Shown here in pieces: positions 5,423 to 20,053 of a DNA stretch of 64,000 nucleotides. Position 1 is the first letter of the stretch. Every line of letters starts with the position of its first letter. A program made the position numbers and the translations under genes. This DNA comes from Methylomonas montana (lineage in GTDB: Bacteria > Pseudomonadota > Gammaproteobacteria > Methylococcales > Methylomonadaceae): contig NZ_CP129884.1 in NCBI RefSeq assembly GCF_030490285.1, positions 1,178,001 to 1,242,000 of the forward strand. Reading direction: 5' to 3'. The notes below the pieces were generated by a model. It searched no databases, was not told the origin of the DNA, and was given only the letters and a program-made list of their open reading frames with translations.

Positions 5423-5770
5423 TGGGGCACACCACGTAGGCGATCGTAAACGGAAAACCTGCACGCTACGTTGAAAAGTCTGGCGGTGTTCATGCCTCTC
5501 ATTCGAGACGAATTGGCCTAAACGATTTATGGCGCCAAGCTTTCGGTCATTACTTGGCCGCTGCGGCGCCATTAAAAATAATCCCGAAAAGCATCAATAC
5601 GGCAGGCAAGAATACGTGGCTTAATAAAGGAACGCCGATACTCGGTAGATGAATCCTCGGGCAAGCAAGGCGGTTTTTTCAGAAACCGTAGCGGCGGGGC
5701 CGACCTGATCGACGGACAGCATTTGGTGTTGTTTTCCTGCTTGTTGAGTTTCGAGGCGCAATAAAGGCTT
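5423..5770. other. Intergenic region, no gene seen
   Basis: 348 bp between the secretion operon and the converging exonuclease gene. No convincing ORF or RNA gene. It holds a short hairpin (CGGTTT 5671-5676 with AAACCG 5683-5688) and a loose pair of ATGGCGCC/GGCGCCAT arms further left. Neither has a clear U-tract, so no terminator is called. Confidence 0.5.
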
Positions 5771-6547
5771 TTAAAAGTCGTAATCGACGATCAGCGGCGC
5801 ATGATCGCTGAAACGTTGTTCTTTATAAATGTTGGTCGATATGGCCGTGGCGGCGATGCCGGGCGTGGCGATTTGATAATCGATGCGCCAACCGACATTC
5901 TTGGCCCAGGCTTGGCCACGATTGCTCCACCAGGTGTAGCATTCGTCGGTAGTATCCGGATGCAAATGGCGATAGGCATCCACCCAGCCCAGTTCATCGA
6001 GCACTTGGGTCATCCAGGCTCGCTCCGCCGGTAAAAAGCCGGAATTCCTCTGGTTACCGCGCCAGTTTTTCAGGTCGGCTTGCCGATGGGCGATATTCCA
6101 GTCGCCACAGATCACCACTTCGCGGCCGCTGGCTTTCAGCTCGGCCAAATGCGGATAGAAGCGATCCATCACGCTGTATTTGACATTTTGCCGCTCCTCG
6201 CTGCTGGAACCGGATGGTAGATACAGGGAGATCACCGATAGATTGCCCAATTGTACTTCCAGGTAACGGCCTTCGGCATCGACGTCGGCATGGCCCAAGC
6301 CTTCGAGCACCGCATCGGCGGGTTTTTTACTGTAAATGCCGACGCCGCTATAACCTTTTTTTTCCGCATAATGAAAATAACCGAACAAGCCGGCGGCTTG
6401 CAGCATGCCCGGTGTCATGTCGGCGGCTTGGGCTTTTAATTCTTGCAGGCAGACGAAGTCGGCGTTCTGGGTTTGCAGCCATTCGTAAAAGCCTTTGCTG
6501 GATGCGGAGCGGATGCCGTTGAGGTTGGCGGAGATGATACGAAGCAT
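5771..6547 (-). CDS. xth: Exodeoxyribonuclease III (AP endonuclease)
   Basis: DNA-repair enzyme of 258 aa that cuts at abasic sites and degrades one strand 3'-5'. It belongs to the endonuclease/exonuclease/phosphatase fold. Visible motifs are the N-terminal ISANLNGIRSA, the metal-binding Glu in FVCLQELKAQ, CGDWNIAHRQADLKN in the middle and the C-terminal catalytic FSDHAPLIVDYDF. Full family length. It stands alone, converging on the secretion operon. Assignment to the XthA branch rather than a general AP endonuclease is from overall pattern and length. Confidence 0.93.
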   Translation of the reverse strand: MLRIISANLNGIRSASSKGFYEWLQTQNADFVCLQELKAQAADMTPGMLQAAGLFGYFHYAEKKGYSGVGIYSKKPADAVLEGLGHADVDAEGRYLEVQLGNLSVISLYLPSGSSSEERQNVKYSVMDRFYPHLAELKASGREVVICGDWNIAHRQADLKNWRGNQRNSGFLPAERAWMTQVLDELGWVDAYRHLHPDTTDECYTWWSNRGQAWAKNVGWRIDYQIATPGIAATAISTNIYKEQRFSDHAPLIVDYDF

Positions 6548-6777
6548 GAGTGTCGGTTTGGGCTGGTGAGCAATAAAAGGGTTACGGTTGAATGAACTGA
6601 TGATGCGCCGCTCCTGAAGTCGGATATCGGCGTGCTGGGTATTTCAGACAGGTTTTCCATGGTTGGGATGGTTTGGCTGATAGTCTAGATGCCAGACGAT
6701 TTTTTGCCGCTGGGGCAATACCCTGTTTACAATGCGGAATAATTCTTACCCATCTGTCGTCTTATGTTCAAACGAAA

Positions 6778-7194
6778 ATGTCTTGTCATCAACTGATTTA
6801 TCAAAGTCGGCCAGCTGTCCCGGTCACCAGACAGGTGCTGTTGGATATCTTGAATACCTCACAACTTCAAAATTACAAACTCAGAATTTCAGGCTTGCTG
6901 GTTTTTCATAACGGCGCGTTCATACAGCTTTTGGAGGGCGGCGAAAAAGAAGTGCACGACTTATATGCCAAAATTCAACTCGACCCACGTCACGCCGATT
7001 TGCGGCTCTTGCTGGATGCCCCTGCGCCGGATCGACTGATGCCGACTTGGGTAATGGGGTTTAGCATGAGCGGCAATGTCGATAGCGCTATCAGCGATCA
7101 AGACTTTCACATCCCGCTCACTGACATCAAGGAGCTTTGTCAGAACATGGAAAACATGGTTGGCCAGGTATTTCGGAAGTTCCTACACGTCTAA
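6778..7194 (+). CDS. BLUF-domain blue-light photoreceptor (short form)
   Basis: 138 aa from the ATG at 6778; upstream in-frame starts would add a non-conserved leader. The BLUF flavin-binding fold covers residues 1 to about 97. The photocycle residues are present: Tyr8 (LIYQS), Asn32 (LQNYKLRISG) and Gln50 (GAFIQLLEG), as is the WVMGF end of the domain. A short C-terminal helix follows with no fused output domain, so signalling must pass through a partner protein. No partner is adjacent. It would bind FAD and sense blue light. Confidence 0.88.
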   Translation: MSCHQLIYQSRPAVPVTRQVLLDILNTSQLQNYKLRISGLLVFHNGAFIQLLEGGEKEVHDLYAKIQLDPRHADLRLLLDAPAPDRLMPTWVMGFSMSGNVDSAISDQDFHIPLTDIKELCQNMENMVGQVFRKFLHV

Positions 7195-7303
7195 ACCGCT
7201 AAGCCGTATTCTGGTTAGTGCTGTGGCGTGGCTACGCTTGTCATATTCGGTATATTCCACCGGCTATCAGCCGACAAATTTCTGTTTTGAATGCTTTTGC
7301 CGC

Positions 7304-7741
7304 TTAGCGTCTGTATGGTTGTTGTGGGACAGGATAGGGTTGTGGTGTCGGTGGAATAGGGAGATTATTATTTAAGCCATCGATAGCGCGTCGATTTAGT
7401 TCCTGCGCTCCTTGTCTGAGCTGGTTTGATCCGCGATCGATCATGGAATCGACAGGATTTTCCAGTTGGTAACGCGGTTGTTGATTACGATATTGCTCGC
7501 CATATTGGTTTCCATATTGATTACCGTATTGGTGGCTGTCGTGTTGGTCATGTAGCTCTTCTCGCTCGTCTGCGCGTTCCTGGCCGCGCAAACTGTCGGG
7601 GTCTGATTGTCTGTTGCTATTTTGCCCTCTTGCACTTTTCTCATGTCCACGGCCTTTTTCGCTGCTATTTTTAGCAATTGCTGGGCTTGCAAGCGAAAAA
7701 GTGGCGATTGTTATTGCGACGCACAATGTTTTTATCTGCAT
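7304..7741 (-). CDS. Secreted low-complexity small protein
   Basis: 145 aa, family not recognised. It has a clear signal peptide (MQIKTLCVAITIATFSLASP, then AIAK), then a charged stretch rich in Arg, Glu, Ser and Gln, a short YGNQ-type repeat (HQYGNQYGNQYGEQYRNQQ) and a Pro-rich tail (LPIPPTPQPYPVPQQPYRR). It is probably periplasmic or surface-exposed and largely disordered. No conserved catalytic residue or lipobox is seen. The signal peptide and the absence of a competing frame support coding. Confidence 0.6.
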   Translation of the reverse strand: MQIKTLCVAITIATFSLASPAIAKNSSEKGRGHEKSARGQNSNRQSDPDSLRGQERADEREELHDQHDSHQYGNQYGNQYGEQYRNQQPRYQLENPVDSMIDRGSNQLRQGAQELNRRAIDGLNNNLPIPPTPQPYPVPQQPYRR

Positions 7742-7793
7742 GGTGACACTCCAAGATTTATTGATTGAGTCGATAGCTGGTTCGGCATGTTAA

Positions 7794-7816
7794 CAAAAAG
7801 CCGGTGTTACCCGGCT
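7794..7816 (-). terminator. Rho-independent terminator
   Basis: On the minus strand AGCCGG-GTAACA-CCGGCT is followed directly by TTTTTG. It lies just past the 3' end of the small membrane-protein gene at 7884-8012, which supports that gene being transcribed. Confidence 0.75.
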
Positions 7817-7883
7817 GATTGTTTACTGGCAATTTAAGGCGTTGCCGTACTCATGGATTCGATGTTGTCCGAACTAGACCGGC

Positions 7884-8012
7884 CTATTGCCCAATTTCAA
7901 CATCACGCCATGCTTCGACGGCGAACATCGCCAGCTCTTTGATTAGTCCGCGCATAAACCGCACCAAACCATATGTAAGACAGATTAATATCAACACTGC
8001 GAATATTTTCAT
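7884..8012 (-). CDS. Small single-span membrane protein (42 aa)
   Basis: 42 aa, unrecognised. One hydrophobic helix (KIFAVLILICLTYGLV) is followed by a basic/amphipathic stretch (RFMRGLIKELAMFAVEAWRD). The start at 8012 is chosen because GGGAGG sits 6 nt upstream; a longer frame to 8123 lacks such a site. A terminator lies downstream at 7794-7816. Size and topology suit a regulatory or stress membrane peptide, but no function is claimed. Confidence 0.5.
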   Translation of the reverse strand: MKIFAVLILICLTYGLVRFMRGLIKELAMFAVEAWRDVEIGQ

Positions 8013-8432
8013 AGAACCTCCCTCAAGCTCCATCGTGCGAGAGTTTGCCACCTTCCCAATAAAACTCAATAGTGCTTTTGTCATTTTTTGGGGCCGTTTT
8101 ACGAAAAGCGCCGTATAAAGCAATTTAAAACAAGTCTTTGAATAATATTGTTAAAGTGAAATAAATTTAAACAAAAAGCCAGCCGATGACCCACGAAGGC
8201 GGCTGAGAATTGGCTTCTTCATACACTGCTCGATCTGCCCGATTTATGCGCCAAAGCTAATGTCTGTATAAAAACCGAAAAGCCAAATCATCTGGGGGTT
8301 TGGGAGCATGCTCTTTGCCTTGGCTTTATGATATTCGGTGCCGCTACCTTTGCTGCTTGGTATCCGTGCCGGTTAGTATGAGTTGTTTGCCATTTTTAAA
8401 GCCAGGATGTGACTCGGGAAAATATAGTGGGC
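8013..8432. other. Non-coding stretch left of the integrated element
   Basis: About 420 bp with no ORF I can support. It contains a minus-strand hairpin terminator at 8173-8205. The region lies downstream, in transcription sense, of where glnA would have ended before integration, so it may be the displaced downstream flank of glnA. Confidence 0.45.
8173..8205 (-). terminator. Terminator-like hairpin, possible displaced glnA terminator
   Basis: Minus strand: CAGCCG (8205-8200), 14-nt loop, CGGCTG (8185-8180), then GCTTTTTG. No gene ends immediately before it on this strand. It lies about 230 bp beyond the left copy of the glnA-end repeat, which makes a role as the original glnA terminator plausible but unproven. 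Confidence 0.4.
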
Positions 8433-8448
8433 AAGGCTGTAGTACATA
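8433..8448. repeat. Left attachment-site core
   Basis: AAGGCTGTAGTACATA, identical to the end of glnA at 18647-18662. The match breaks at the next base on both sides. Read on the minus strand it encodes MYYSL, but the stop codon found in glnA does not follow here. Confidence 0.75.
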
Positions 8449-8490
8449 AGCCTAGTGTTTTCAATGCCTGTAGCGCCTGCAAAATAAAAT

Positions 8491-8510
8491 AGGGGACAAA
8501 ATAGGGGGCA
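8491..8510. repeat. Putative integrase arm-type site, left end
   Basis: AGGGGACAAAATAGGGGGCA, repeated exactly and in the same orientation at 18506-18525, inside the other end of the element. It is 42 bp inside the left core. In the excised circle the two copies would flank the core, as arm sites of tyrosine integrases do. Confidence 0.6.
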
Positions 8511-8535
8511 TTGATTTTTTCTTTTCCGAAAAAGC

Positions 8536-8560
8536 ACAAAAAAACCGGCCGAAGCCGGTT
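8536..8560 (-). terminator. Strong terminator of the element's capsid operon
   Basis: Minus strand AACCGGC-TTCG-GCCGGTT followed by TTTTTG; the loop is the very stable TTCG tetraloop. It lies about 100 bp after the capsid stop. Two further hairpins sit between: GGGCCGC/GCGGCCC at 8571-8592, and arms CACCGGCA/TGCCGGTG that bracket roughly 8609-8655. Confidence 0.85.
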
Positions 8561-8665
8561 TTGAAAGTGAGGGCCGCTCAGCCGTGCGGCCCTCGTACCC
8601 ACATTTAACACCGGCAAGCCCTCCGGCCAAGGAATAAGCCTTACCTGCCGGTGTATGCAAGTTCT

Positions 8666-10627
8666 TTAAGCGCCCGGATTTTTAATCAAGCCTATCCAGT
8701 CAATCGCCGCAGCCTGGAAGTCGAGCCGGCATTTAATTTTAAGCGCGTCTGAATCAAAATGCTCTTCCTGATCGATAAAGGCACCGCGTTGGCCTTGTAG
8801 GTAGGCAACCTCGATTGTGTCCACTTGATTGAAATCCGCAGCCAAATACCAAGACTTATCGTTACTGGCATCCAGACGCGCATCGACGACGATTTCGAGG
8901 CCACGAATCCAGGCGTGTTGCGGCGTGGCATTCTGCTTTGTCGGATCAACTAACGAGGATACCAGTTGCTCGGCTTCCGATTCCAGCGCCGCCGGCACAA
9001 TCAAAAACCTTGGGACGATATTCAAAATAGCACCCTGCATACCCTGTTGCTTGCGCATGGCCGCCCGTGCGGCACCTAGCGAGGTGATAGACAAGGCTGC
9101 CGCCGTCATCAAGTTGTGATGGTCTGCGTGGAACAGTGCTTTGGCATCGGCCATCGTCGGGTTTCCGGTCAAGATGGCATATACCTTATCGGCTTCGAGT
9201 CGTGACGCCGATCTACCCAGGGCGTTGGGAATCTTGGTAAAGGCGTTTAAATCGTCGTTGATGATCATTTGCCGTGTCAGGCTGATGATTTTGCCGAAGG
9301 TTTGCAAGGCAAAGCCTTCGCCTTTTTCTTGCATGGCACCGTGGCGATATTCGCCGCGCTCGTTGACCAATTCCAGGTCTGGCGCTTCGGATAACGCTAC
9401 GCGTTTTTGGGTTTTGAAGTCGGGAACGTCGGTTTGGTTAACCCACAGGCGGTGTGACGCCGGCTCGGTATCGTAGCCGTGCATTAACGATTTAGACGCG
9501 ACGTTTTCCAATAGCAGAGGAAAATCGCTGGTGGTCAGCGCTGCTTTAATCACGTCACCGCTGGTTTCCTGACGGATACCAAACAAACCCCGGCGAATCG
9601 TGCCGCCGGCTTGGCCGACCATGGTTCGCGCCATATCGGTCAACGACATACCCATTACATCACGGGCCGCCGGATGCGGCTTCGCCGGGCGGATATTGTT
9701 TTTCAGCATCAGGGCATCGACGGCCGCTTCCATAAATTCGCCGTGATGCGCATTCGGGCCAAAGCTGGCGCGTGGATGATACTCTTCCACTTGACCACTT
9801 TGCGGATTGATCCTGACCGTAGTTTGCATGATCGGTTCTTGTCCGGTACCCAACCTAGTCATGAAAATTTCTCTGGCCGCATCAAGGCTGATCGTCGACT
9901 TAGAAAGGCAGATTTTAAGCAGGTCGTCGGTTGCAACGCCAGGAAAGGATTTATTAACGGATGCAAAATAGTTTGATATGTCATCGCGGCGTTTCTGATC
10001 GGCTTTGATGGTGGCCAGTTCGGCCAATTGAGCTTGTACGTCGGCATGGTTGGTTGCGGGTTGGGTGGTGCTTGATGAAGCGGTTGTCATGGCTTTAATC
10101 CTATCGGGAAGGTTGAAGTGTTCGATGCCAACATACTGAGCCGCCATACTGAGCGGTTGGTAGATTGCATCGATGAGTTTGTGTTGCAGGGCCTCTTCGG
10201 CGGTAAACCAGGTTTCGGCATCCATGATTTGCGAGATTTCGGCTTCAGGCTTGCCGGTTCTTCCTGCGTAGGCGCTCAGCATTGATGTTTTGGCCTTATC
10301 CAACAGTTCCGCCTGCTTGCGTAAATCGGCGCTATCTCCTGAGGTGTCAGACCATGGATTGTGGATCATCAGCAGGGCGTTTTCGGCCATCTCGGTACGG
10401 TTGCCGGCCATGGCAATCAGTGAGGCAATCGACGCCGCCAAGCCATCTATCTTGACGGTGACTTGGCCACGGCGTTGGATGGCGTTGTAAATTGCCAAGC
10501 CTTCAAACACCGATCCACCACCAGAATTGATGCGTAACACTACCGAGCCCTTGATCTTGTTCAGGCCATCAATCAGGTTTTTGGCACTGCCAGGGCCTAT
10601 GCCGTCGTACAGGTATAGATCAGCCAT
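8666..10627 (-). CDS. ClpP-like prohead protease / major capsid protein fusion
   Basis: 653 aa from the ATG at 10627, which overlaps the upstream stop (ATGGCTGA). Residues 1 to about 200 are a ClpP-type head-maturation protease with Ser66 (GLAASIAS), His89 (LMIHNPW) and Asp153 (KLIDAI) as the likely triad. A linker follows to about 290. Residues 300-653 are a capsid-like domain (DVMGMSLTDMARTM, MHGYDTEPASHRLWV, WYLAADFNQVDTIEVAYLQG). Fusions of this kind are known in phages and would self-process during head assembly. It is the last gene of the element and is followed by a terminator. No portal, terminase or scaffold gene is recognised nearby. Confidence 0.88.
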   Translation of the reverse strand: MADLYLYDGIGPGSAKNLIDGLNKIKGSVVLRINSGGGSVFEGLAIYNAIQRRGQVTVKIDGLAASIASLIAMAGNRTEMAENALLMIHNPWSDTSGDSADLRKQAELLDKAKTSMLSAYAGRTGKPEAEISQIMDAETWFTAEEALQHKLIDAIYQPLSMAAQYVGIEHFNLPDRIKAMTTASSSTTQPATNHADVQAQLAELATIKADQKRRDDISNYFASVNKSFPGVATDDLLKICLSKSTISLDAAREIFMTRLGTGQEPIMQTTVRINPQSGQVEEYHPRASFGPNAHHGEFMEAAVDALMLKNNIRPAKPHPAARDVMGMSLTDMARTMVGQAGGTIRRGLFGIRQETSGDVIKAALTTSDFPLLLENVASKSLMHGYDTEPASHRLWVNQTDVPDFKTQKRVALSEAPDLELVNERGEYRHGAMQEKGEGFALQTFGKIISLTRQMIINDDLNAFTKIPNALGRSASRLEADKVYAILTGNPTMADAKALFHADHHNLMTAAALSITSLGAARAAMRKQQGMQGAILNIVPRFLIVPAALESEAEQLVSSLVDPTKQNATPQHAWIRGLEIVVDARLDASNDKSWYLAADFNQVDTIEVAYLQGQRGAFIDQEEHFDSDALKIKCRLDFQAAAIDWIGLIKNPGA

Positions 10628-10838
10628 GGATAGCCACCGCAGGGGCCAACAATTGGTGAAGCTGACTCGGATCGGCCGGCAATCCGGAAGCGACCAGGTG
10701 TCCGAACAAGGGGTTATCGCCGTGCGCACCGGTGGCAATGATCTTGGTGATTTTCAGCAATGCGCTGTCGTAGGGTAAGCCCTCGCGCTTCTGGATAAAG
10801 CTGAGGGCGTTTTTCAGGATGAGTGTTTGCGAGTGCAT
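10620..10838 (-). CDS. Small element protein upstream of capsid fusion
   Basis: 72 aa, not recognised. The start at 10838 has GGAGG about 5 nt upstream. Its stop overlaps the capsid-fusion start by 8 nt, so the two are translationally coupled and probably work together. There are no membrane segments and no obvious motif; the middle is KITKIIATGAHGDNPLFGHL. A head-assembly or packaging accessory role would fit the position, but the sequence does not show it. Confidence 0.65.
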   Translation of the reverse strand: MHSQTLILKNALSFIQKREGLPYDSALLKITKIIATGAHGDNPLFGHLVASGLPADPSQLHQLLAPAVAIHG

Positions 10839-10861
10839 AAGGCCTCCGGGGAAACAGGTTT

Positions 10862-11302
10862 CTATTTTCCCCGGCCCGCGTACTCGGTGAATAGTGGGGG
10901 GGGTCGCCGAGTAGGTTTGATTCGATCATGAATGCCAACAGCTGACTGGGGAAGCTCAATCGGCAGGTTGAACAAGTGCGGCAAAAGCGGATTCTCGCTT
11001 TTGGATCGCGGCCAACGCCTTATCATGTCGGCCAGCGTCTCGCATTTGCTCCATAGCGACTCACCGGGGTACTGGGTGCAACTACTGGCCGCGAACTTAA
11101 GCAAAACATCGCGGTGCCTAAGCAATTCACGATTTTTGGCACGCCGAATGCCAGCACCCCGCAACCCTAGACAGAGACACAGCGGTTTATTCGTTTCGAC
11201 GTGTTCGCGCCAGGCGGCCATATACCAGGCGGCGACATCGCCGGGTATGGGGAGACCCGCCTCAATACAGGTCAACAGCCTTTTCTGATTTTCAATACTC
11301 AT
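10862..11302 (-). CDS. Hypothetical element protein (146 aa)
   Basis: Unrecognised basic protein of 146 aa. GAGGG about 8 nt before the ATG supports the start. The N-terminus (QKRLLTCIEAGLPIPGDVAA, then WYMAAW) and an Arg-rich middle (LRGAGIRRAKNRELLRHRD) suggest a helical, possibly nucleic-acid-binding protein. It is the first gene after the repeat-array region and lies 23 bp before the 72-aa gene, so it starts the capsid operon. A regulator, a packaging factor or a diverged small terminase are all possible and none is shown. Confidence 0.65.
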   Translation of the reverse strand: MSIENQKRLLTCIEAGLPIPGDVAAWYMAAWREHVETNKPLCLCLGLRGAGIRRAKNRELLRHRDVLLKFAASSCTQYPGESLWSKCETLADMIRRWPRSKSENPLLPHLFNLPIELPQSAVGIHDRIKPTRRPPPLFTEYAGRGK

Positions 11303-11440
11303 TTATCTACCCTCACAACTAAACCCCCTTACAACCCCTCTGACATTAACAAGAAACCGAGGTCCGAATTACCCGTACCGAATCCCCTTGGGGAAGGACC
11401 CGCACATAAACCCGATAACCCACATTGACGATCACGAAAA

Positions 11441-11659
11441 ACCTCAATAAACAAAATTTCAAAAATATTTATTGTCCAGAACTTAGGAAACTTAGGAACT
11501 TAGGCTAAAATCAATAACTTACAGCAGAACTTAGCCCAGAACTTAGCAGAAACTTAGCTTTTGCTGTTCAAATCAAAAAGCTAAGTTTCTACCTAAGTTT
11601 CTGCTAAGTTCTGGCCTGTAGGCCTTGATAACTCTCTAAGTTCCTAAGTTCTCTAAGTT
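11441..11659. repeat. Mirrored array of AACTTAG repeats with AT-rich tract: candidate replication origin
   Basis: Six perfect AACTTAG copies (starting 11480, 11489, 11497, 11528, 11540, 11551), plus AACTTAC at 11516, are followed by six perfect CTAAGTT copies (11581, 11593, 11604, 11636, 11644, 11653). Left spacings are 9, 8, 31, 12, 11 and right spacings 12, 11, 32, 8, 9, so the array is close to a mirror image. A 22-bp arm at 11536-11557 is the exact reverse complement of 11593-11614. An AT-rich stretch (11441-11475) abuts the left side like an unwinding element. It lies just past the end of the element's ATPase gene. Iterons plus an AT-rich tract beside primase/helicase genes suggest an origin; a regulatory region is the alternative. 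Confidence 0.7.
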
Positions 11660-11709
11660 CTTTAAAGTCAGACTAACGGATTAACTATGCCGCAAAGTCA
11701 ATGCACCCG

Positions 11710-13113
11710 TTATCCTTTCCAATCAACCCAAAACACGATTGTCCCTTTACCCGGTTTACCATCCGCCCTTGGCAATTGCCGTTGAATGATCAAAGGTGGT
11801 GCAGCGTTCAGCAGATGATTAAGCGCGTCGGTAATCTGCGGGCCTGTGAACCTGTTCTTGAACATGGTGGTAATGACTGTTTTCGAACAACGCGGATTCG
11901 CGCGGATGAACTCCAACACCTCGTTACTGGTGGCATCCAACCGCTCGGCCTCGGCCTTGGCGCTCAACGTCTGGAAGATGTAGGACACTGACGCCTTCCA
12001 GTAATTGATCCAGGCCAACGCGGCGCGGATATGTTGCGGCTCGATAACCTCCGAACGATCTAGCAAGGCAAAGACCATGGCGAACATCCGGCAATAGATT
12101 TCCACTCGCACCAACAAAGCGCCGGCAATGCCAGACTGTTCAGCGGTCAGCGCTGGATACTCGTTACACCATAGCGTGATGGCATCGTGTGACATCCGGA
12201 TTTCTTTACTGTTGTTGGCGGTGTAGTCTTCGCCAATGGCAAACCTGACAGACTCGGCCACCAAACCGGCCAGGCGCTCTATTTCCTCTTGGCGCGTTGG
12301 TTTAGGCATTGCAACCAACTTGGCACGAACAATATGCAGAATCACAAATCGATTCAAGAAGCCACTCTGAGCGTCAACGTCATCCCAACGATGTAACAAC
12401 TCTTGAGATGTAATGTGTCCGGTAATGCAGATATGCGGGTTAGATGCGCACCACTTAGAATTACTAACAAGCGGCGAGATATGCTTGCCATCCCACGAGG
12501 TACGAATAGTTGCGCTTAGAGTATTCCGTTCTCTGGAGGCGGCAGACATCGCCCCGGCAAATTCAGATTCTACGATTAGCATCCTTTTATCATCGGTGCC
12601 TTCGTCGTCGTCCTCGTCAAGCTTGTCTCTGATCGCTTTACCCATACCCTCGCCGGTACTCAGGCCACCTTCGTGGCGTTGCATGCTCGGATAGGCATCA
12701 ACGGTTATCAGCTCGACCGCATCGAAGATTTTCCTAACGGTAAACTCAGCCGTCCCTTTTCGAGCCTTACCGGTGCGACCGACCAACAGAAAAAACGGCC
12801 TTGCATGGCAAGTACCGTCTCCAATGTGCTGAAAGGCCACCCGGCCCACCATCGCGCTGAAGGTGGCCAGGAAGTTGGCCGCGACGGCGACGGGCGACGC
12901 CTCGCTGCTCTTACAGGCCGTTTTCACTACATCCGCCAAAATCCCGTGATAGCCTTCCTTAGCCAGCACTGGCGGCGGGTTTAACAGATCGTCGTCGGCG
13001 TCCGCCGGCAAAGACGCTTGTTGTTCATTCGCAGTGGCAAGCTGGCTATTGATAGCCACCCTGGCGGCTTCCAGGCCATTAGCTGCGTGTAAATCATTCC
13101 AATCAATGCCCAT
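11710..13113 (-). CDS. DUF3987-type replication ATPase/helicase of the element
   Basis: 467 aa from the ATG at 13113, which overlaps the upstream stop (TGATG); a GTG at 13116 is possible. The DUF3987 pattern is visible: Walker-A-like GRTGKARKGT at 112-121, RMLIVESEFAGAMSAASRER near 178-197 as the Walker B region, then TSWDGKHISPLVSN and ICITGHITSQELLHR. The C-terminal part (EVLEFIRANPRCSKTVITTM) resembles a winged helix for DNA binding. In phage satellites such proteins act with a Toprim primase in replication. It directly follows the primase and precedes the repeat array. Helicase activity is inferred from the family. Confidence 0.82.
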   Translation of the reverse strand: MGIDWNDLHAANGLEAARVAINSQLATANEQQASLPADADDDLLNPPPVLAKEGYHGILADVVKTACKSSEASPVAVAANFLATFSAMVGRVAFQHIGDGTCHARPFFLLVGRTGKARKGTAEFTVRKIFDAVELITVDAYPSMQRHEGGLSTGEGMGKAIRDKLDEDDDEGTDDKRMLIVESEFAGAMSAASRERNTLSATIRTSWDGKHISPLVSNSKWCASNPHICITGHITSQELLHRWDDVDAQSGFLNRFVILHIVRAKLVAMPKPTRQEEIERLAGLVAESVRFAIGEDYTANNSKEIRMSHDAITLWCNEYPALTAEQSGIAGALLVRVEIYCRMFAMVFALLDRSEVIEPQHIRAALAWINYWKASVSYIFQTLSAKAEAERLDATSNEVLEFIRANPRCSKTVITTMFKNRFTGPQITDALNHLLNAAPPLIIQRQLPRADGKPGKGTIVFWVDWKG

Positions 13114-13994
13114 CACGCCACCTCGCCTTGATGCGGTGGCAGCACCGCCACGCCACCCACGGCACGCGCAGCGGCTTCGGCCTTGACGCGGCCCGGATTG
13201 TCGGGATGGTCGAAATCGTCGTCGGCAAACAGAACGATTTTGGAGTGCGGATAGCGCAGCCGCACGGCTTCGGCGACGTGCTCCAGATTGCCGGCATCGA
13301 AGGCCACAAAAACCGGCCAGCCTGTTGCCATGTGCGCCGTACAGCCGGTGGCGTAACCCTCAGTTATACCCATATAGCCGTCAGGATCGTTAACGCTCGC
13401 CAGCGGGCAAAAATGGCCTTTTTTCACGGTACCGGTCAAAAACCGCTTATTGCCTTCGGCGTCGATGAATTGCAGGCCGTGAAGCTTGCCGTCGAACGAC
13501 CGGACCGGAATCACGACCGAGCCGCGCGAATATCGGCAACCCAGCCCGGCAATCTTTTTGCGCTGCAAATAAGCGGAATGCCCATTCACGCCGCAAGCGT
13601 TCCAAATGGACAGCGCCTTATCGGCAGCCGCTTGGGCTTCCTCCTGCCTAAGCAACCTAGCCGTGCGCCGGCTTTCGGCTTGTGATTGCTCGATACGTTG
13701 CTTTTCGGCGGGCAATAATGAATGACCGTGACCCAATTCCACGGTATAGGCGTAGCTCTCGGCCCCCTTGAACCAGCCGAACGAGCCGCTGATTAACTCG
13801 GCGCCGGCATCGGTGCGGAATTGAAACAGCACGTACCATGCGCGCTTTTTGCTGGGCTTGGGTTCCCAGCCGGGCCGGAACCGATGGAGCTGACCATCGG
13901 CCAGCAAATCGGCAGACGTTAACCCGGTCAGGCTAACCGCTTCCATCTGCGCAATGACGTTTAGGCAAGCGTCTTCGATGGTTTGAAATGACAT
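13113..13994 (-). CDS. Toprim-domain primase of the element
   Basis: 293 aa from the ATG at 13994, preceded by AAGGATG; a longer frame to 14054 lacks a site. The N-terminal region has the phage-primase pattern LADGQLHRFRPGWEPKPSKK and SFGWFKG, without a zinc-finger Cys set. The Toprim fold covers about 205-290 with Glu212 in ITEGYATGCTAH, VAFDAGNLEHV and the acidic FADDD at 256-260. This is the P4/DnaG-type catalytic centre that makes primers. The 3' end overlaps the DUF3987 gene, as in other satellite replication modules. Confidence 0.87.
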   Translation of the reverse strand: MSFQTIEDACLNVIAQMEAVSLTGLTSADLLADGQLHRFRPGWEPKPSKKRAWYVLFQFRTDAGAELISGSFGWFKGAESYAYTVELGHGHSLLPAEKQRIEQSQAESRRTARLLRQEEAQAAADKALSIWNACGVNGHSAYLQRKKIAGLGCRYSRGSVVIPVRSFDGKLHGLQFIDAEGNKRFLTGTVKKGHFCPLASVNDPDGYMGITEGYATGCTAHMATGWPVFVAFDAGNLEHVAEAVRLRYPHSKIVLFADDDFDHPDNPGRVKAEAAARAVGGVAVLPPHQGEVA

Positions 13995-14141
13995 GATTTT
14001 TTCATCCTTGCCGGGATGCAATCCGCCTGACCATGGGCTAAAATAGCCCTGCACTTTGGCAAACGGATTGCGGAAAACTCCGGCTTAAATTAGGTTTCGG
14101 GGTTTTTTATTGCCCGGTGAATCGTCCGAACGGAGATTGGC

Positions 14142-14366
14142 TTAATGGCATGTGTTACCCGCCTTGGCCGTATTGGCCTCTTTCGCCGCCGCATGGGCCA
14201 TTACGTGCTCCATCAGCGACAGTCCCAATACCGACACTAGACCACAGACCACCGCACGATCTACTTCGTTGTAGCTAGCGCTATTTATCGTTTCAGCGAT
14301 ACCGGTCAATATCGAGGCTTCCCATTGGGCGATAAGGTCATCCAATTCTTTGATTTCGATGCTCAT
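14142..14366 (-). CDS. Hypothetical element protein (74 aa)
   Basis: Not recognised. The start at 14366 is chosen because AGGAGG lies 4 nt upstream. It is helical in character (IKELDDLIAQWEASILTGIA) with a hydrophobic central helix (VCGLVSVLGLSLMEHVMAHA) that may be a weak membrane segment. It lies between the 46-aa ORF and the primase in the same operon. Confidence 0.6.
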   Translation of the reverse strand: MSIEIKELDDLIAQWEASILTGIAETINSASYNEVDRAVVCGLVSVLGLSLMEHVMAHAAAKEANTAKAGNTCH

Positions 14367-14374
14367 GAAGCCTC

Positions 14375-14515
14375 CTAATCCATGTAAATGACAGCTTGAA
14401 AGCCGTGCTTGATCGTCAGAATCTCGAAGGCACGTTGGCAACGTGCCCGAGATAGAAACCAGGCCGACCGATGCTCTTTGCCGTCTCGAACGTAAAGCAC
14501 ACAATATTTCGTCAT
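14375..14515 (-). CDS. Hypothetical element microprotein (46 aa)
   Basis: A 46-codon frame whose ATG (14515-14513) overlaps the stop of the upstream 219-aa gene as TGATG. Its TAG at 14377-14375 lies inside the AGGAGG ribosome site of the downstream 74-aa gene. The tight coupling on both sides argues that it is translated. The product is MTKYCVLYVRDGKEHRSAWF, then a basic stretch with ARCQRAFEILTIKHGFQAVI. Small, basic and soluble; family unknown. Confidence 0.6.
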   Translation of the reverse strand: MTKYCVLYVRDGKEHRSAWFLSRARCQRAFEILTIKHGFQAVIYMD

Positions 14516-15174
14516 CACTCACCCCCTTTGACTTCCAAACCCGCCTTGGCCTTTGCAATTCCGGATCTGGTAGCTCGCCGGTTTTGCTTCTCGCCCTCCT
14601 TCATCGCCTTACGAACCCGTTTTTCAATCTCGTACAGCGCCGAGTCGCTCCAGCCAGGTACGTGGCGGATATGCAGGATTTGATGGAACAGGCGGAAGGC
14701 CTCGGCGTCCAGCCGGGTGAGTTCCATCAACGGATGATTGAATGGATGCGGGCGGTAGGAACTGATGAAGGCATCGGCAAGGAATTTACCGGAGTGGCCG
14801 CCTTGTTCGATACGGGGAATCAGTAGGTCGGCTTCCAACGCCATCGGCACAATGCCACGCTCGATGGCTTGTATCGCGAGCACTTCGTCGAGCGATACCT
14901 TCCGCGGCGTCTCGGTGTAACCGTTTTGCCCGTGGACCGATTGGCCGCACAATTGATCGCGCATTTGCCGGCAAAACGCGGCCAGCTCTTCGGCGTCGCA
15001 TTGTAGGTGGATCAACGCGGAACCGGTCAGTTGTTCGTGTTCGCCTTCGTGGAGCACCATATCGGCGCTACGGGCGATAGCCATGAACTTTTGACGGATC
15101 GCTTCGATGGGGTTTTGTGGCTGTGTTTGGGTGTTGGATTTTGGGCGGATTTCGGGTGTGGCTTGGGTGTTCAT
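14515..15174 (-). CDS. Hypothetical element protein (219 aa)
   Basis: Not recognised. The N-terminus is polar (SNTQTQPQNP). A helical core follows (IEAIRQKFMAIARSADMVLH; LIHLQCDAEELAAFCRQM), then a loop region (GYTETPRKVSLDEVLAIQAI) and a very basic C-terminal helix (EKRVRKAMKEGEKQNRRATR). The start at 15174 overlaps the upstream stop by 4 nt (ATGA). It sits in the early/replication operon between AlpA and the primase, so regulation or replication is likely by position only. Confidence 0.7.
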   Translation of the reverse strand: MNTQATPEIRPKSNTQTQPQNPIEAIRQKFMAIARSADMVLHEGEHEQLTGSALIHLQCDAEELAAFCRQMRDQLCGQSVHGQNGYTETPRKVSLDEVLAIQAIERGIVPMALEADLLIPRIEQGGHSGKFLADAFISSYRPHPFNHPLMELTRLDAEAFRLFHQILHIRHVPGWSDSALYEIEKRVRKAMKEGEKQNRRATRSGIAKAKAGLEVKGGE

Positions 15175-15554
15175 AGCGGTTGTCCTTTACTGAGGATAAA
15201 TAAACCGCCGCCAAAGGTTGAGAGTCTTTGGGCGGCGACGTGCATCGGGTTCTCAACACCGGGTAAAGGCTCCGGCCCGCTCGAAAGCGGCCCTATGCAC
15301 GCCACCATGACAAAAGCACGCACCATGGGCGCGACTATTTTCTTTGGGCAATAAAAAACGCCTTGAATCGGCGCTTTGACGCCTTTACTTTCCGGGTTGA
15401 GAGTTCCGGGCTGACTGTTGCCAGCGATAATCAGCATAGCCACCCGCGCGCAGTCCGTCAAGCCGATCTCTATCAAATCGGCAATTTTCCAGCGTTTTTT
15501 CCGCTTACGATTGAGACGGGAAGGTTTGGTATTGGGATCGTTCGGGCGACTCAT
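15171..15554 (-). CDS. Hypothetical element protein (127 aa)
   Basis: Not firmly recognised. The N-terminus is strongly basic (NTKPSRLNRKRKKRWKIADL). The C-terminal half (MVRAFVMVACIGPLSSGPEP, then NPMHVAAQRLSTFGGGLFIL) resembles the short cysteine- and glycine-rich tails of small phage ORFs sometimes labelled Icd-like cell-division inhibitors; this is a weak compositional resemblance. It overlaps AlpA and the next gene by 4 nt each. In mid-gene a small hairpin (CGCC/GGCG, 15359-15373) with TTTTTT on the minus strand could cause premature termination. Confidence 0.6.
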   Translation of the reverse strand: MSRPNDPNTKPSRLNRKRKKRWKIADLIEIGLTDCARVAMLIIAGNSQPGTLNPESKGVKAPIQGVFYCPKKIVAPMVRAFVMVACIGPLSSGPEPLPGVENPMHVAAQRLSTFGGGLFILSKGQPL

Positions 15555-15835
15555 TTCGATCCCCTTGCAGCTTCCAGCTTCACAACCAAGGCTTTGATTT
15601 CGGCATCGGTCTTGCCAGCAATCCGGGCGTCGATGATCGCCTGGACTTCATCGCCAGGCCAGGCAACCTGACAAGGGTCGCCGTTTTTGTCCCGGCCGAT
15701 GACGACAGGCCTTACAAACAGGCCGGCGTCGATTTCCCGGTAAATTGTGCCTCTCGATTTGCCGTAAACCTTTTCGACTATCGGACGGCGGTACAGAGGG
15801 TTGAGGGTTGGTAATGCAGCGGCTTGGCTTGCCAT
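15551..15835 (-). CDS. AlpA-family transcriptional regulator
   Basis: 94-aa helix-turn-helix DNA-binding protein of the AlpA/MerR-like fold. The core reads LYRRPIVEKVYGKSRGTIYR, then EIDAGLFVRPVVIGR and VAWPGDEVQAIIDARIAG, with the typical W-P-E end. AAGGAG lies 11 nt before the start. In P4-type satellites AlpA relatives control integrase/excision or the replication operon. It is the first gene of the tightly overlapping operon running to the DUF3987 ATPase, so it probably acts as early regulator or excisionase. Confidence 0.85.
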   Translation of the reverse strand: MASQAAALPTLNPLYRRPIVEKVYGKSRGTIYREIDAGLFVRPVVIGRDKNGDPCQVAWPGDEVQAIIDARIAGKTDAEIKALVVKLEAARGSK

Positions 15836-15932
15836 GTCTGAATCTCCTTTGGATTGATTGACATGGCTTAACCATAAACGCGATTTTTCACCCCTTTTGA
15901 TATTCGGCGTAAATCTCCCTTATTCGGGCTTA

Positions 15933-16574
15933 TTATCCGCTATTGTCTGCGGTGTACTCTTTCCATCGCTTTTTGAATCCCGATTTCGATAGTGTCTTAA
16001 CGCCAGGCATGGTCAAGCAGGATTCTCCCCCTTTATCGGTACTTGCCTCAATGTTGTAACCATGTGGCGGCGATATATTCAGCCGCACCCATGCTAGAGT
16101 TTCATTCGGCAAACGGCTATTCTCGGCATAAAATTCATTGACCATTTCCCGGATGGCTTCAAACCAATCATCAGTGCGCATGGGCAATTTGAGTGAACAG
16201 GTATTTTGATTGAATTGCTTCACTGGATTTTCGCGCTCGAAGCGTTCGACTTCGGTGGCATCGATAATCAGGCGATCGGTTCCTGGATAGAAGGTAATGG
16301 TGACATCGGCACCGATCAGGCTGGCATCTTCCGACGTTTGGCAAACCCCGGTTTTACAAAACGGTTCCGTCGCATGATAGATGTTTGCCAGGTCTTCGAA
16401 GGTAATCGGTGTATGGGCGCCGCGCTGGTTGACCTCGAGGCCTGGATATTCCCAATCGGCTTGGGCAACGAATTTGAGTTGATTGGTCAAGCCAAGCTGC
16501 ATGATGACGTCAATCGGAAGCCGCCAATGCTCGGCCAGTTGATCGACCGTGAAATAAAGTCGTTCGATTTTCAA
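15933..16574 (-). CDS. Hypothetical element protein with N-terminal HTH-like segment
   Basis: 213 aa. The N-terminus (LYFTVDQLAEHWRLPIDVIM, then QLGLTNQLKF) resembles the winged/MerR-like helix-turn-helix in many phage accessory proteins. The middle is acidic (TFYPGTDRLIIDATEVERFE) and the C-terminus basic (KTLSKSGFKKRWKEY). No catalytic motif is seen. It sits upstream of alpA on the same strand with about 100 bp between. A regulatory role is possible; the family is unknown to me. Confidence 0.65.
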   Translation of the reverse strand: MKIERLYFTVDQLAEHWRLPIDVIMQLGLTNQLKFVAQADWEYPGLEVNQRGAHTPITFEDLANIYHATEPFCKTGVCQTSEDASLIGADVTITFYPGTDRLIIDATEVERFERENPVKQFNQNTCSLKLPMRTDDWFEAIREMVNEFYAENSRLPNETLAWVRLNISPPHGYNIEASTDKGGESCLTMPGVKTLSKSGFKKRWKEYTADNSG

Positions 16575-16684
16575 AACGCACCCCGTTACAGTGCCATCAT
16601 TACGAAAGGGTCAACCGGAAATAGGGTAACGAATCCCGCTTGTCGCCCCGTCGGGCTATCCGGTTGATGTCAATTATACAGCCT

Positions 16685-16909
16685 TCAAAAACAATCCCAA
16701 ACCAAGTCTAGCTCTTCGCCATCTTCGGAAAACAAATCATATTCGCCTTCGCCTTGCTTGACGACGAATCGCGCCGGCGGTTCGTAGGTGTTCGCCATTG
16801 CTCGCAAAGCATCAGGCAATGATGGCTCATTGATGTCGATCAAAATCCCGCCATCGCCTAAATCCCCTTCACAAAAATCACCCGCTTTGAGTTTATTTTC
16901 TTCATTCAT
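16685..16909 (-). CDS. Hypothetical acidic element protein (74 aa)
   Basis: Unrecognised. Strongly acidic (GDFCEGDLGDGGILIDINEP; GEGEYDLFSEDGEELDLVWD), which could suit a DNA mimic or an inhibitor, but this is only composition. AAGGTG lies 8 nt upstream of the start. The next gene upstream ends 10 bp away, so the two probably share a transcript. Confidence 0.55.
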   Translation of the reverse strand: MNEENKLKAGDFCEGDLGDGGILIDINEPSLPDALRAMANTYEPPARFVVKQGEGEYDLFSEDGEELDLVWDCF

Positions 16910-16919
16910 CGAGTCACCT

Positions 16920-17153
16920 TCATAGTCTGGTCGTCAAAGCCGCTAACACGAGCCCGACGACAATATATAACGCAATGCCTATCCAAAACAGGATATTCGC
17001 GCCCCAGAACACCAACCAAAAGTAAGGCGCAATTGGCGGGCTGGTCAGCACAAAAAGCCCGGCCAGAATGATAGTGGCGCTTAAGCCGTCTTGCTTTCGA
17101 CGAGGCAACGCTAAAAACCAGGCTTTCACACGCGACACGGTACTTTGGATCAT
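16920..17153 (-). CDS. Small membrane protein of the element (77 aa)
   Basis: Unrecognised. It has two hydrophobic helices (LSATIILAGLFVLTSPPIAP; FWGANILFWIGIALYIVVGL) after a basic N-terminus, so it is probably an inner-membrane protein with two spans. This frame is preferred over the overlapping 88-aa frame because of its membrane pattern and fit to the neighbour. It lies between the integrase and the acidic gene, a place where satellites often carry accessory (for example anti-phage) genes; no such role is shown. Confidence 0.55.
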   Translation of the reverse strand: MIQSTVSRVKAWFLALPRRKQDGLSATIILAGLFVLTSPPIAPYFWLVFWGANILFWIGIALYIVVGLVLAALTTRL

Positions 17154-17247
17154 ATGAAGGGTACGATTTCAAATCGGCTTACAACGCTTTGCCGAAATTG
17201 GCTTGGATCACAACGCGCTCATTCATCACGCTGTCGAGAAAATTGGC

Positions 17248-18462
17248 TCACGATTGCAACATTTCTAAGCGTTGGGTTTTGTACTGCGCATGGGAATAAG
17301 TGCCAGCCATGCCGGGGATAGCATGACTCAGCGCGGTTTCCACGACTTCCGGCGAATGGCCTTGTTCTCGTAGGTGGGTTGATGCAGTATGCCGGTGATC
17401 GTGGATGTTGTAGTCGATGATGACGCCCGCAGCCAGCGCCGCCGCGTGCGCACCGCTTAGGTTATTGCTGTGCATCGCCCTTGCTGGGTTGGTTGGCATC
17501 GGCATCACCCAGCGACTATCGCCAGATAGCCGCTTTAACTCCCAAAGCATTTCGATAGCCTGGCGCGGCAGCATCACCAGATGATCTTTTTTGGTTTTCA
17601 TCCGGCCTGCCGGTATCAGCATTTCGCCTTTCTCGAAGTCGATCTCACTCCAGGCGGCGCCGGTAAGCTCCTGCTTTCTTAATGCCAGCATCAACAGCAG
17701 ATGCAAGCCCAGTTTGTAACCTCGATAGCAGTTGGCTTGGTATAAACCGATCAGGTAACGCCTAATTTCCGGCGTGGTCAACCATCGGGTTCGTTTGTTG
17801 CGGTTGCCGACGCGGGCGGGTTTTACCAACGCCGCGGGATTGTGCTTGCAAAAGTCGTGCTCCACGGCATAACTAAAGACGCGCTCAGCCCATGCCAGAC
17901 AAGATAGGGCGGTCGGTGGTCCGACATGCTCGCGGATGTCATAAATCAATTCGCGGATCGTGGCGACATCGATCTCGGCCAGAGGCTTATCGGCTAGCTT
18001 TGGTAGTAAATGCCGTTTAACCGGCGTCCAGCCTTTGTCCGGGTTTTTCCAGTGAGAGTCTACCCATTCGGTTTTATATCTGCCGGCAGCTTCGCCAAAG
18101 GTCGTCAGGGCTTGCAAGGCGGCTTTTTCTTGAGCGGCCTTGACGTGTTCTTCCAGGGTTTTGACGCCATGGCCATCGACAATCATTTTCTTGGCTTGCG
18201 GGTCGTCGAGCAGGGTAGAAGGGTGTTGATTCAATGCGACAAGCTGCCGGGCAACAGCGTGGATTTTTCGGGCATCGACCAGGCTGATGTCTAGATAGTT
18301 GCCGTAGCCATACTTTTCTTTTTTGCCATTAAGCCGAAATTCGTATCGCCAAGTTTTTGTACCCTTTTTCCGAATTACGAGCGAAAGCCCATCTCCGTCA
18401 GCCAACTGGTAATCTTTCTCCAAAGCCTTGGATTTCTTGATTTGCGTGTCGGTCAAGCTCAT
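17248..18462 (-). CDS. P4-type tyrosine integrase
   Basis: Site-specific recombinase of 404 aa. The N-terminal DUF4102 arm-binding domain (SLTDTQIKKSKALEKDYQLA, DGDGLSLVIRKKGTKTW) is followed by a core-binding domain (about 120-215) and the catalytic domain: Arg262 (LALRKQELTG), His354-x-x-Arg357 (HDHRH), His380 and nucleophile Tyr389 (AGTYSHAQY). All catalytic residues are present, so it should be active. It reads away from the glnA end, with 185 bp between its start and the right core. That 185 bp holds the arm-type repeats. Confidence 0.94.
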   Translation of the reverse strand: MSLTDTQIKKSKALEKDYQLADGDGLSLVIRKKGTKTWRYEFRLNGKKEKYGYGNYLDISLVDARKIHAVARQLVALNQHPSTLLDDPQAKKMIVDGHGVKTLEEHVKAAQEKAALQALTTFGEAAGRYKTEWVDSHWKNPDKGWTPVKRHLLPKLADKPLAEIDVATIRELIYDIREHVGPPTALSCLAWAERVFSYAVEHDFCKHNPAALVKPARVGNRNKRTRWLTTPEIRRYLIGLYQANCYRGYKLGLHLLLMLALRKQELTGAAWSEIDFEKGEMLIPAGRMKTKKDHLVMLPRQAIEMLWELKRLSGDSRWVMPMPTNPARAMHSNNLSGAHAAALAAGVIIDYNIHDHRHTASTHLREQGHSPEVVETALSHAIPGMAGTYSHAQYKTQRLEMLQS

Positions 18463-18466
18463 AAAA

Positions 18467-18513
18467 TGTCCCCTTTTTTTGAGATTCTACTGGAAATTTA
18501 AAAAAAGGGGACA
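18467..18513. repeat. Inverted repeat in the integrase promoter region
   Basis: TGTCCCCTTTTTTT at 18467-18480 is the exact complement of AAAAAAAGGGGACA at 18500-18513 (14-bp arms, 19-bp spacer), immediately before the integrase ATG. The GGGGACA unit is shared with the direct arm repeat at 18506-18525. Likely integrase binding sites that also let the integrase control its own expression. Confidence 0.6.
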
Positions 18514-18525
18514 AAATAGGGGGCA
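18506..18525. repeat. Putative integrase arm-type site, right end
   Basis: Exact direct copy of the 20-bp sequence at 8491-8510, 121 bp inside the right core. Nearby are several GAGATT/GAGACT units (18481, 18544, 18554, 18618) and a 13-bp palindrome CTGTCTAAGACAG at 18622-18634, which could bind an excisionase. Confidence 0.6.
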
Positions 18526-18570
18526 AAAATAGCGGGCTTGGGTGAGATTGCTTGAGATTGGTTTGGACAT

Positions 18571-18605
18571 AAAAAACCCCGCGAAGCTAGGTGGCTTGCG
18601 GGGTT
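18571..18605 (-). terminator. glnA terminator supplied by the element
   Basis: Minus strand AACCCCGC, 15-nt loop, GCGGGGTT, then TTTT. It lies 40 bp past the glnA stop. Because the right core ends at the last glnA sense codon, this terminator and the glnA stop codon belong to element-side DNA. Confidence 0.85.
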
Positions 18606-18643
18606 GTGGGCTTGCTTGAGACTGTCTAAGACAGCTTTAAAAT

Positions 18644-20053
18644 CTAAAGGCTGTAGTACATATCCAGCTCGACAGGGTGGGTGCTCATACGTAGACGAGT
18701 CACGTCTTCTTGTTTCAGTGCGATGTACCCATCGATCACGTCGTCGGTGAATACACCACCACGAGTCAGGAATTCACGATCTGCATCCAGAGCGGCCAAA
18801 GCTTCATCCAGAGAGAACGCCACTTGCGGGATGGCTTTTTCTTCTTCTGGCGGCAAGTCGTACAAGTCTTTATCCATCGCGTCGCCCGGATGGATTTTGT
18901 TTTGGATGCCGTCAAGACCGGCCATCAACATGGCAGAGAACGCCAAATATGGATTAGCGGTCGAGTCCGGGAAGCGTACTTCGATACGACGACCTTTAGG
19001 GTTGTTGACGTAAGGAATACGGATGGACGCAGAACGGTTGCGTGCTGAGTAAGCCAGCATCACAGGCGCTTCAAAACCAGGCACCAGACGTTTGTAGCTG
19101 TTGGTTGACGCGTTGGTGATTGCGTTCAGGGCTTTGGCGTGTTTGATGATGCCGCCGATGTAGTACAGTGCGGTTTCGGACAAGCCGCCGTACAGATTGC
19201 CGGTAAACAGGTTAACACCGCCTTTAGCTAAAGATTGGTGAACGTGCATACCGCTGCCGTTATCGCCAACCAGTGGTTTCGGCATGAAGGTTGCTGTTTT
19301 GCCGTAAGCGTGAGCGATGTTGGCAATCACGTATTTCAAGCCCAAGACTTCGTCGGCTTTTTTGACCAGAGTGTTGAATTTAACGCCGATTTCGCACTGG
19401 CCGGCAGTTGCAACTTCATGGTGATGAACTTCGACAGTTTGGCCGATTTCTTCCAGAACCAGACACATCGCAGAACGCATGTCCTGGAATGAGTCGACTG
19501 GCGGAACGGGGAAATAACCGCCTTTGACGCCTGGACGGTGGCCGATGTTGCCGTTTTCGTAAACTTTTTCAGAGTTCCAGCCTGCTTCCTCGGAATCAAT
19601 GCTGTAAGAGCAGCCGCCCATGCCGGTGCTCCAGCGGACGTCGTCGAAAATGAAAAATTCGTTTTCAGGACCGAAGAATGCGGTGTCAGCGATGCCGGTA
19701 GATTGCATGTAGGCTTCGGCGCGTTTGGCGATAGAGCGTGGATCGCGCACATAACCTTGCATGTCTTTAGGTTCGATGATGTCGCAACGCAAGATCAGCG
19801 TTTTGTCGTCGAAGAATGGATCGATAACCGCTGTGCTTGGGTCCGGCATCAAAATCATGTCGGATTCGTTGATGTGTTTCCAGCCGGCAATAGAAGAGCC
19901 GTCGAACATGTTGCCTTCTTCAAAGGTATCTTCGTCGATGGTGTGAGCCGGAAAGGTGACGTGTTGCTCTTTACCGCGCGTGTCGCAGAAGCGGAAATCG
20001 ACAAATTTGATGTCGTTTTCTTGGATTAATTTGAGGACGTGATCAACAGACAT
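18644..20053 (-). CDS. glnA: Glutamine synthetase, type I
   Basis: 469 aa; makes glutamine from glutamate, ammonium and ATP, the main ammonium-assimilation step. Visible: the GSI start [35 protein letters not shown], metal-binding [23 protein letters not shown] and the adenylylation site Tyr398 in [10 protein letters not shown], so activity is probably controlled by GlnE/PII. GGAG lies upstream of the start. The 3' end is the integration target of the 8433-18662 element: the last five codons lie in the repeat core and the stop TAG (18646-18644) comes from element-side DNA. The protein appears intact. Confidence 0.97.
18647..18662. repeat. Right attachment-site core within glnA
   Basis: AAGGCTGTAGTACATA, the final five sense codons of glnA plus one base on the complementary strand, identical to 8433-8448. 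Confidence 0.75.

Follow-up and report, generated by a model that had tools for sequence, protein, structure and literature searches.

Beside glnA in Methylomonas montana, in a 64,000-nt stretch of contig NZ_CP129884.1 (positions 1,178,001 to 1,242,000; hereafter the window), lies an element of about 10 kb that we consider likely to be a phage satellite dependent on a helper, of the Gram-negative phage-inducible chromosomal island (GN-PICI) type, whose own capsid protein would enter particles. Its status as a satellite, already claimed in a first-pass annotation of the sequence, is well supported by the gene set, an iteron-based candidate origin, C4 and int-alpA RNAs and bounded relatives, whereas the shell function of the capsid protein is what we infer from its sequence. 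A shell of its own, with portal, terminase and tail taken from a helper, is consistent with these data. GN-PICIs are known mostly from Enterobacteriaceae and Pasteurellaceae (PMC6092414; papers are cited by PMC number), and this element would extend the type to a family of methane oxidisers, presumably that of Candidatus Methylobacter favarea.

In the mechanism that we propose, the C4 RNA would hold the downstream genes silent until a helper phage lifts the silencing; the integrase and AlpA would excise the element, and the primase, helicase and iterons would replicate it, with portal, terminase, tail and lysis provided by the helper. The satellite capsid, made late, would then become part of particles, forming either a complete satellite shell around the helper portal or a mixture with helper capsid that alters the size of the latter, like Ccm in SaPIbov5. 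In the M. montana genome itself, searches for the PF05136 portal and PF05876 terminase families were negative at E ≤ 0.001, which means that a helper of the lambda type would need to arrive from elsewhere.

Gene content of the element

All 13 accepted genes lie on the minus strand (8666-18462) and follow one another from integrase to capsid in the order below, with a 407-bp gap between the helicase gene and p146; the three genes beyond this gap (p146, the 72-aa ORF and the capsid) make up a short late block.

17248..18462, minus: tyrosine integrase, 404 aa (phrog_1, 9.5e-54)
16920..17153, minus: 77-aa protein, hydrophobic by eye (scanned against PADLOC only)
16685..16909, minus: 74-aa protein of no named family (scanned against PADLOC only)
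16598..16666, minus: int-alpA RNA RF02996, between int and alpA (42.6 bits, cut-off 35.8)
15933..16574, minus: 213-aa protein, no family assigned (Pfam and PHROGs scanned)
15551..15835, minus: AlpA-like regulator, 94 aa (phrog_66, 3.3e-6)
15171..15554, minus: eta-like gene, 127 aa, overlapping alpA by 4 nt, with the C4 RNA inside
15228..15312, minus: C4 antisense RNA RF01695, in the eta-like gene (63.0 bits, cut-off 45)
14515..15174, minus: early-region protein, 219 aa (relatives in loci L058 and L201, 46-47%)
14142..14558, minus: 138-aa open reading frame (ORF), no family assigned (Pfam and PHROGs scanned)
13113..14054, minus: Toprim primase, 313 aa, overlapping the helicase gene by 4 nt (PF13362, 3.9e-6; phrog_2249, 8.5e-63)
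11710..13116, minus: helicase (DUF3987-like), 468 aa (PHROGs 'helicase', 2.1e-8)
11480..11659, no strand: candidate replication origin, six direct and six inverted AACTTAG iterons
10862..11302, minus: p146, predicted small helical protein, group marker
10620..10838, minus: 72-aa ORF, no family assigned, sharing 8 nt with the start of the capsid gene
8666..10627, minus: fusion of ClpP-type head protease and HK97-type major capsid protein, 653 aa

The PHROGs and Pfam matches bear out the integrase, AlpA, Toprim primase and protease/capsid fusion named in the first-pass annotation. Its 'DUF3987 ATPase' holds as a helicase, but the DUF3987 label is weakly supported, by the annotation of the phage match with the best E-value (22%, 6e-15). 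The earlier claim that no portal or terminase can be recognised also stands: ORFs of at least 280 aa are limited to integrase, primase, helicase and capsid, and since the largest gene without an assignment has 219 aa, no ORF appears big enough for a portal or a large terminase. Connectors, a small terminase and HNH were likewise not recognised with Pfam, PHROGs and a small-terminase (TerS) profile, several small proteins staying without a family. Among the PHROG matches for window proteins there is no Rpp or own TerS, and among those listed for the 11 scanned proteins no Sid or Psu. A small holin-type lysis gene is possible in the 74- and 77-aa proteins, which lay outside the Pfam and PHROGs scans.

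Replication origin and regulatory RNAs

All 12 copies of AACTTAG in the window fall within 11480-11659, in the 407-bp gap that follows the helicase gene, while 2000 mononucleotide shuffles of this gap gave a mean of 0.07 copies and a maximum of 2. The 23 nt separating the two sets are 70% AT, and a GN-PICI origin consists of two iteron sets on either side of an AT-rich stretch (PMC6092414); the prototype EcCICFT073 shows a repeat array at the corresponding place. Downstream of the corresponding gene, similar repeats occur in L050 (AAATTAG) and in L052, L053 and L054 (AACTTAG), and appear degenerate in L051 and L112. In the latter locus (2560-3687), tandem units around ATCGATG/CAACATC were seen by eye after the helicase gene of the related element.

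As for the RNAs, Rfam also finds the C4 RNA in loci L202, L201, L057, L058, L059 and L064. In P4, the CI RNA lies within the Bro-type gene eta and is coupled to alpA, and several GN-PICIs are matched by C4 or isrK profiles (PMC10111431).

Bounded relatives

Relatives of the helicase were found at six loci in genome contigs and in 10 of 151 relatives, the own genome included. The closest one (74%) is in L051 (3908-5548, minus), together with a primase at 60% and a tape-measure-like gene, and no capsid was found there. Ten bounded relatives of 9.1-13.5 kb carry an integrase, replication genes and p146:

L050, 9.6 kb, 49-bp repeat: capsid with head protease
L168, 9.8 kb, 58-bp repeat: capsid, tail-completion protein, small terminase
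L172, 9.5 kb, 25-bp repeat: capsid and tape measure
L202, 9.1 kb, 59-bp repeat: p146 and protease-capsid at the end, as in the window
L169, 13.1 kb, 48-bp repeat: capsid, protease, tape measure
L170, 10.3 kb, 58-bp repeat: central-tail-fibre J homolog (phrog_31, 1.2e-77), small terminase (3.2e-15)
L196, 13.5 kb, 67-bp repeat: tape measure
L198, 12.4 kb, 44-bp repeat: head protease
L203, 12.0 kb, 41-bp repeat: small terminase
L118, circular viral contig, 10,351 bp once a 141-bp end repeat is removed: integrase, RecT, replication initiator, p146-like protein, ClpP-capsid

The repeat lies within a tRNA gene in eight of the nine integrated elements, the exception being L172. No portal or large terminase was recognised in any of the ten by PHROGs, every ORF of at least 280 aa being listed: those scanned belonged to families of integrases, replication proteins, capsids, proteases, tape measures or J, or had no match. 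Integrases other than those of the window and L050 were named by similarity or by eye, the L168 and L118 capsids by a local hidden Markov model (HMM), and the L050 helicase, alternative frames and opposite-strand ORFs lay outside the PHROGs scan. A 523-aa ORF of L169 was considered as a portal (phrog_21, 3.5e-22), but the same residues match a head protease at 3.2e-108 and it was read as a protease. Capsids occur in L050, L168, L172, L202, L169 and L118, six of these ten elements. L170 is a p146 element with the J homolog (5302-7824, minus) and a small terminase, no capsid being found, and this satellite may bring its own host-binding tip.

The own genome holds a second integrase-bearing element (L066, C1:2109500-2129400), with an int-alpA RNA, a primase, a separate ClpP protease, a capsid (phrog_10) and a tape-measure-like protein, and with no portal or large terminase among the eight ORFs scanned.

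The capsid fusion and its lineage

We read the capsid gene from the ATG at 10627 (653 aa) instead of taking the whole 690-aa ORF. The fusion matches PF25209 (6.6e-58) and PF00574 (1.6e-31) in Pfam and phrog_133 (1.3e-160) in PHROGs, and it has the motifs AAS, MIHNP and KLID, which we take to be catalytic. It is 37% identical, over its full length, to proteins of E. coli phages such as mEp043. In the one phage of this type compared, a small terminase, a large terminase, a 71-aa ORF and a portal stand directly upstream of the capsid gene, a slot that in the window is occupied by p146 and the 72-aa ORF. Among 37 genus genomes, a full-length match was found in the window's own genome only. In genome G007, all that remains is a 62-residue capsid tail (L059, 9950-10135) with an internal stop and 56 of 62 positions identical, which ends another p146 element. 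Third codon positions hold 36 of the 42 differences between the window capsid and this same-genus remnant.

In a maximum-likelihood tree of 49 capsids (nine of the 58 scored, L131, L154, L155, L173, L064, L202, L201, L142 and L144, were left out as partial, distant or duplicate), the window groups with L118, L172, L117, L168, L050 and L062 in one clade with support 98/97. Each of these seven rows is a p146 locus, their hosts belong to different families, and four of them are bounded relatives (L118, L172, L168 and L050), although the placement of L172, a long branch, is less sure. The protease partner varies inside the clade: it is of the ClpP type in the window, L117, L168 and L118, of another head-protease type in L050 and L062, and missing in L172. 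Moreover, the capsid proteins of L117, a viral contig, and L168, a chromosomal locus, are 97.4% identical, with dN 0.014, dS 0.081 and a dN/dS of about 0.17, so that the capsid is under purifying selection in this single close satellite pair. With a satellite capsid that forms a lineage apart and shows signs of selection, the role of PICI capsids becomes testable.

The p146 protein

An AlphaFold2 model of p146 is helical (mean pLDDT 86, pTM 0.60), and a structure search with it returned no confident match; there is likewise no credible match in Pfam or PHROGs. With three members as queries, no match was obtained in 50,697 phage records at E ≤ 0.01. Its sequence can serve to detect elements of this kind, and it is absent from the phage family library that was searched. 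The protein was found, the own genome included each time, in 8 of 369 genomes of the class (E ≤ 0.01), in 5 of 398 of the phylum (E ≤ 0.001) and in 16 of 151 relatives, four of these 16 being probably false (E 0.005-0.009, in frames of 411-434 aa).

Among 27 p146 loci (window included, and some of them near-copies or from the same genome: L117/L168, L064/L200), the capsid-fusion HMM matches 14, in L173 and L064 in the protease part only. The portal HMM matches none and the large-terminase HMM one, but both models were built from lambda-like phages that share this capsid family, and other types could escape them. Conversely, no locus with a portal match has p146. L171 is a 5.5-kb contig with p146 and the start of a large terminase, plus a terminase-like tail at its other end on the opposite strand, possibly a helper-embedded satellite or a misassembly. 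In L174, a large-terminase ORF (11143-12546; phrog_2, 2e-23) near p146 is an exception to the pattern.

Two identities for p146 were tried and rejected. It does not look like Rpp, which carries an N-terminal winged helix (PMC6739421): the p146 profile matches nothing in the EcCICFT073 stretch, where the length of ORF 17660-18094 agrees with that stated for RppA, against 1.3e-37 for p146 itself. Nor does it seem a plain replacement for the small terminase, as both occur together in several relatives.

The virion parts carried by p146 elements are capsid, tape measure and tail tip J. A bolder proposal, which we regard as possible but doubtful, is that these elements form an unnamed group of satellites, each supplying one or a few parts of the helper virion (shell, tape measure, tail tip), p146 fitting each part to helper assembly; the window would then be the minimal, shell-only form, its shell closed on the helper portal.

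Points against and other explanations

Several results weigh against a satellite that uses its own capsid. The EcCICFT073 capsid gene can be deleted without loss of transfer (PMC6092414), and no capsid was seen in four bounded relatives (L170, L196, L198 and L203), in what was scanned. In the capsid tree, L123, L205 and L206 fall outside the clade, and the p146 labels need four changes, at least two of them forced by well-supported branches. A small-terminase-like gene is frequent in relatives (L168, L170, L123, L203 and L197), whereas a TerS profile built from nine relatives' proteins matches nothing in the window; PHROGs places a 233-aa protein of L168 in its 'connector' category (tail completion or Neck1, 5.2e-20); and two of the 27 p146 loci, L171 and, through PHROGs, L174, do have a large-terminase ORF. 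Finally, Pfam names nothing for the 468-aa helicase and is also silent on the AlpA-like protein (no match at E ≤ 1).

One alternative, to which we give little credence, is that the capsid acts as a decoy, poisoning helper virions by co-assembly and so protecting the host, with no part in the packaging of the satellite. In this regard, Ccm redirects helper assembly to small shells and forms none alone (PMC8569155), and the single parts of other p146 elements (tape measure, J) could poison assembly too. A poison would, however, need no intact protease, while the fusion of protease and capsid shows purifying selection over its full extent in L117/L168 and sits in a p146-only clade; moreover, interference by EcCICFT073 did not need its capsid gene (PMC6092414). 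About as improbable in our view is a captured late gene that now serves no purpose, which may also be the case for the dispensable capsid of EcCICFT073. GN-PICIs do have a dynamic late zone that takes up late genes of prophages (PMC10111431), but the dN/dS of that one pair, the third-position bias and a clade of seven across hosts of different families all speak against such an idle gene. That the element is a deletion remnant of a prophage formerly with portal and terminase, the earlier note's own refuting case, is very unlikely because the bounded relatives, no larger than 13.5 kb, also lack a recognised portal and large terminase; the upstream position of these genes in the related phage and the broken capsid tail of G007 would fit it, against the p146-only capsid clade and an origin and RNAs of satellite type.

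Comparison with known systems

The helper-dependent satellite that we favour shares with P4 primase-based replication and an eta-like gene that overlaps alpA and contains a C4-type RNA; P4 is not known to carry a capsid gene. SaPIbov5, a Staphylococcus aureus pathogenicity island (SaPI), also bears a capsid homolog, Ccm, which acts with helper proteins and is not known to have a protease domain. It is however a Gram-positive cos SaPI, and Ccm diverts helper assembly to small shells but cannot build shells alone (PMC8569155). The closer likeness is with GN-PICIs: an integrase and an AlpA-like regulator, one gene direction, an origin made of two iteron sets downstream of the replication gene, the absence of any recognised portal or large terminase, and a capsid among the late genes. 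EcCICFT073 (L212, about 10.7 kb) likewise has an integrase, an AlpA-like protein, a primase, a capsid gene and, downstream of its replication gene, an iteron array, with no portal or large terminase annotated. It differs in its decoration protein and Rpp, in an integrase only 24% identical, and in that neither the capsid HMM nor the p146 profile of the window matches anything there, positive controls having worked. Likened by description only, the Pasteurella PmCI172 is a PICI with small heads and a capsid homolog, the role of which is unproven in that account (PMC6092414). Capsid-forming PICIs share the own capsid and head protease, but bring in addition a portal, connectors, the two terminase subunits and HNH (PMC10690885), none of which was recognised in the window. 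The phage-inducible chromosomal minimalist island (PICMI) has an integrase, AlpA and a DUF3987-type primase, but adjoins fis and encodes no capsid remodelling (PMC10803314), whereas the present element lies beside glnA and carries a capsid.

The first-pass annotation, comparing the element with P4/PICI satellites and capsid-forming PICIs only, had thought of a distinct minimal class. This does not hold for the most part, as 21 of 29 reference GN-PICIs have a capsid gene (PMC10111431); what remains distinct are the p146 group and the capsid clade. The presence of a capsid gene in GN-PICIs is thus already published, and what is new here is p146 and the variety of virion parts on p146 elements. 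The open-access literature, most subscription papers being outside this scope, gave no paper on satellites of Methylococcales and none on satellites with a lone tail tip.

Edges and host site

The features that bear on the limits of the element are the following:

8433..8448, no strand: 16-bp exact direct repeat, left copy, possible att
8486..8510, no strand: 25-nt repeat (20 bp exact), left copy, possible integrase site
18501..18525, no strand: 25-nt repeat, right copy; similar motifs adjoin glnA in three other genus genomes
18647..18662, no strand: 16-bp repeat, right copy, in the 3' end of glnA
18644..20053, minus: glnA, neighbouring host gene (named by reading); 36 of 37 genus genomes, the own one among them, match its DNA

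Of the 'clean direct repeats' described earlier, the 16-bp exact repeat is real, but its copies at 8433 and 18647 are probably not the exact edges because the right one sits inside glnA, past the terminator (about 18570-18605, read by eye in all 29 relatives compared), and a second repeat lies inside (20 bp exact at 8491 and 18506; 96% over 25 nt). Judged from the genus relatives, the host boundary is to the left of the glnA terminator, and the sequence places the ends of the element somewhere within 8433-8510 and 18501-18662.

In 8 of the 29 relatives (L079-L084, L086 and L096), the left-neighbour gene (5771-6547) adjoins the terminator, the distance being about 680 bp in L079 and 25-40 bp in the seven others, so the window holds about 12 kb extra, of which the element makes up about 10 kb. 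No exact empty site was found. A further copy of the motif GGGGGCAAAATAGGGGGCA adjoins glnA in G031, with close variants in G026 and G010, and G031 retains an integrase remnant (54.5% over 44 residues), from which we conclude that related integrases have used the glnA site. The approximately 1.9 kb between the left-neighbour gene and the element (6549-8432), missing from the eight relatives, hold a 173-aa ORF that presumably resembles a BLUF domain.

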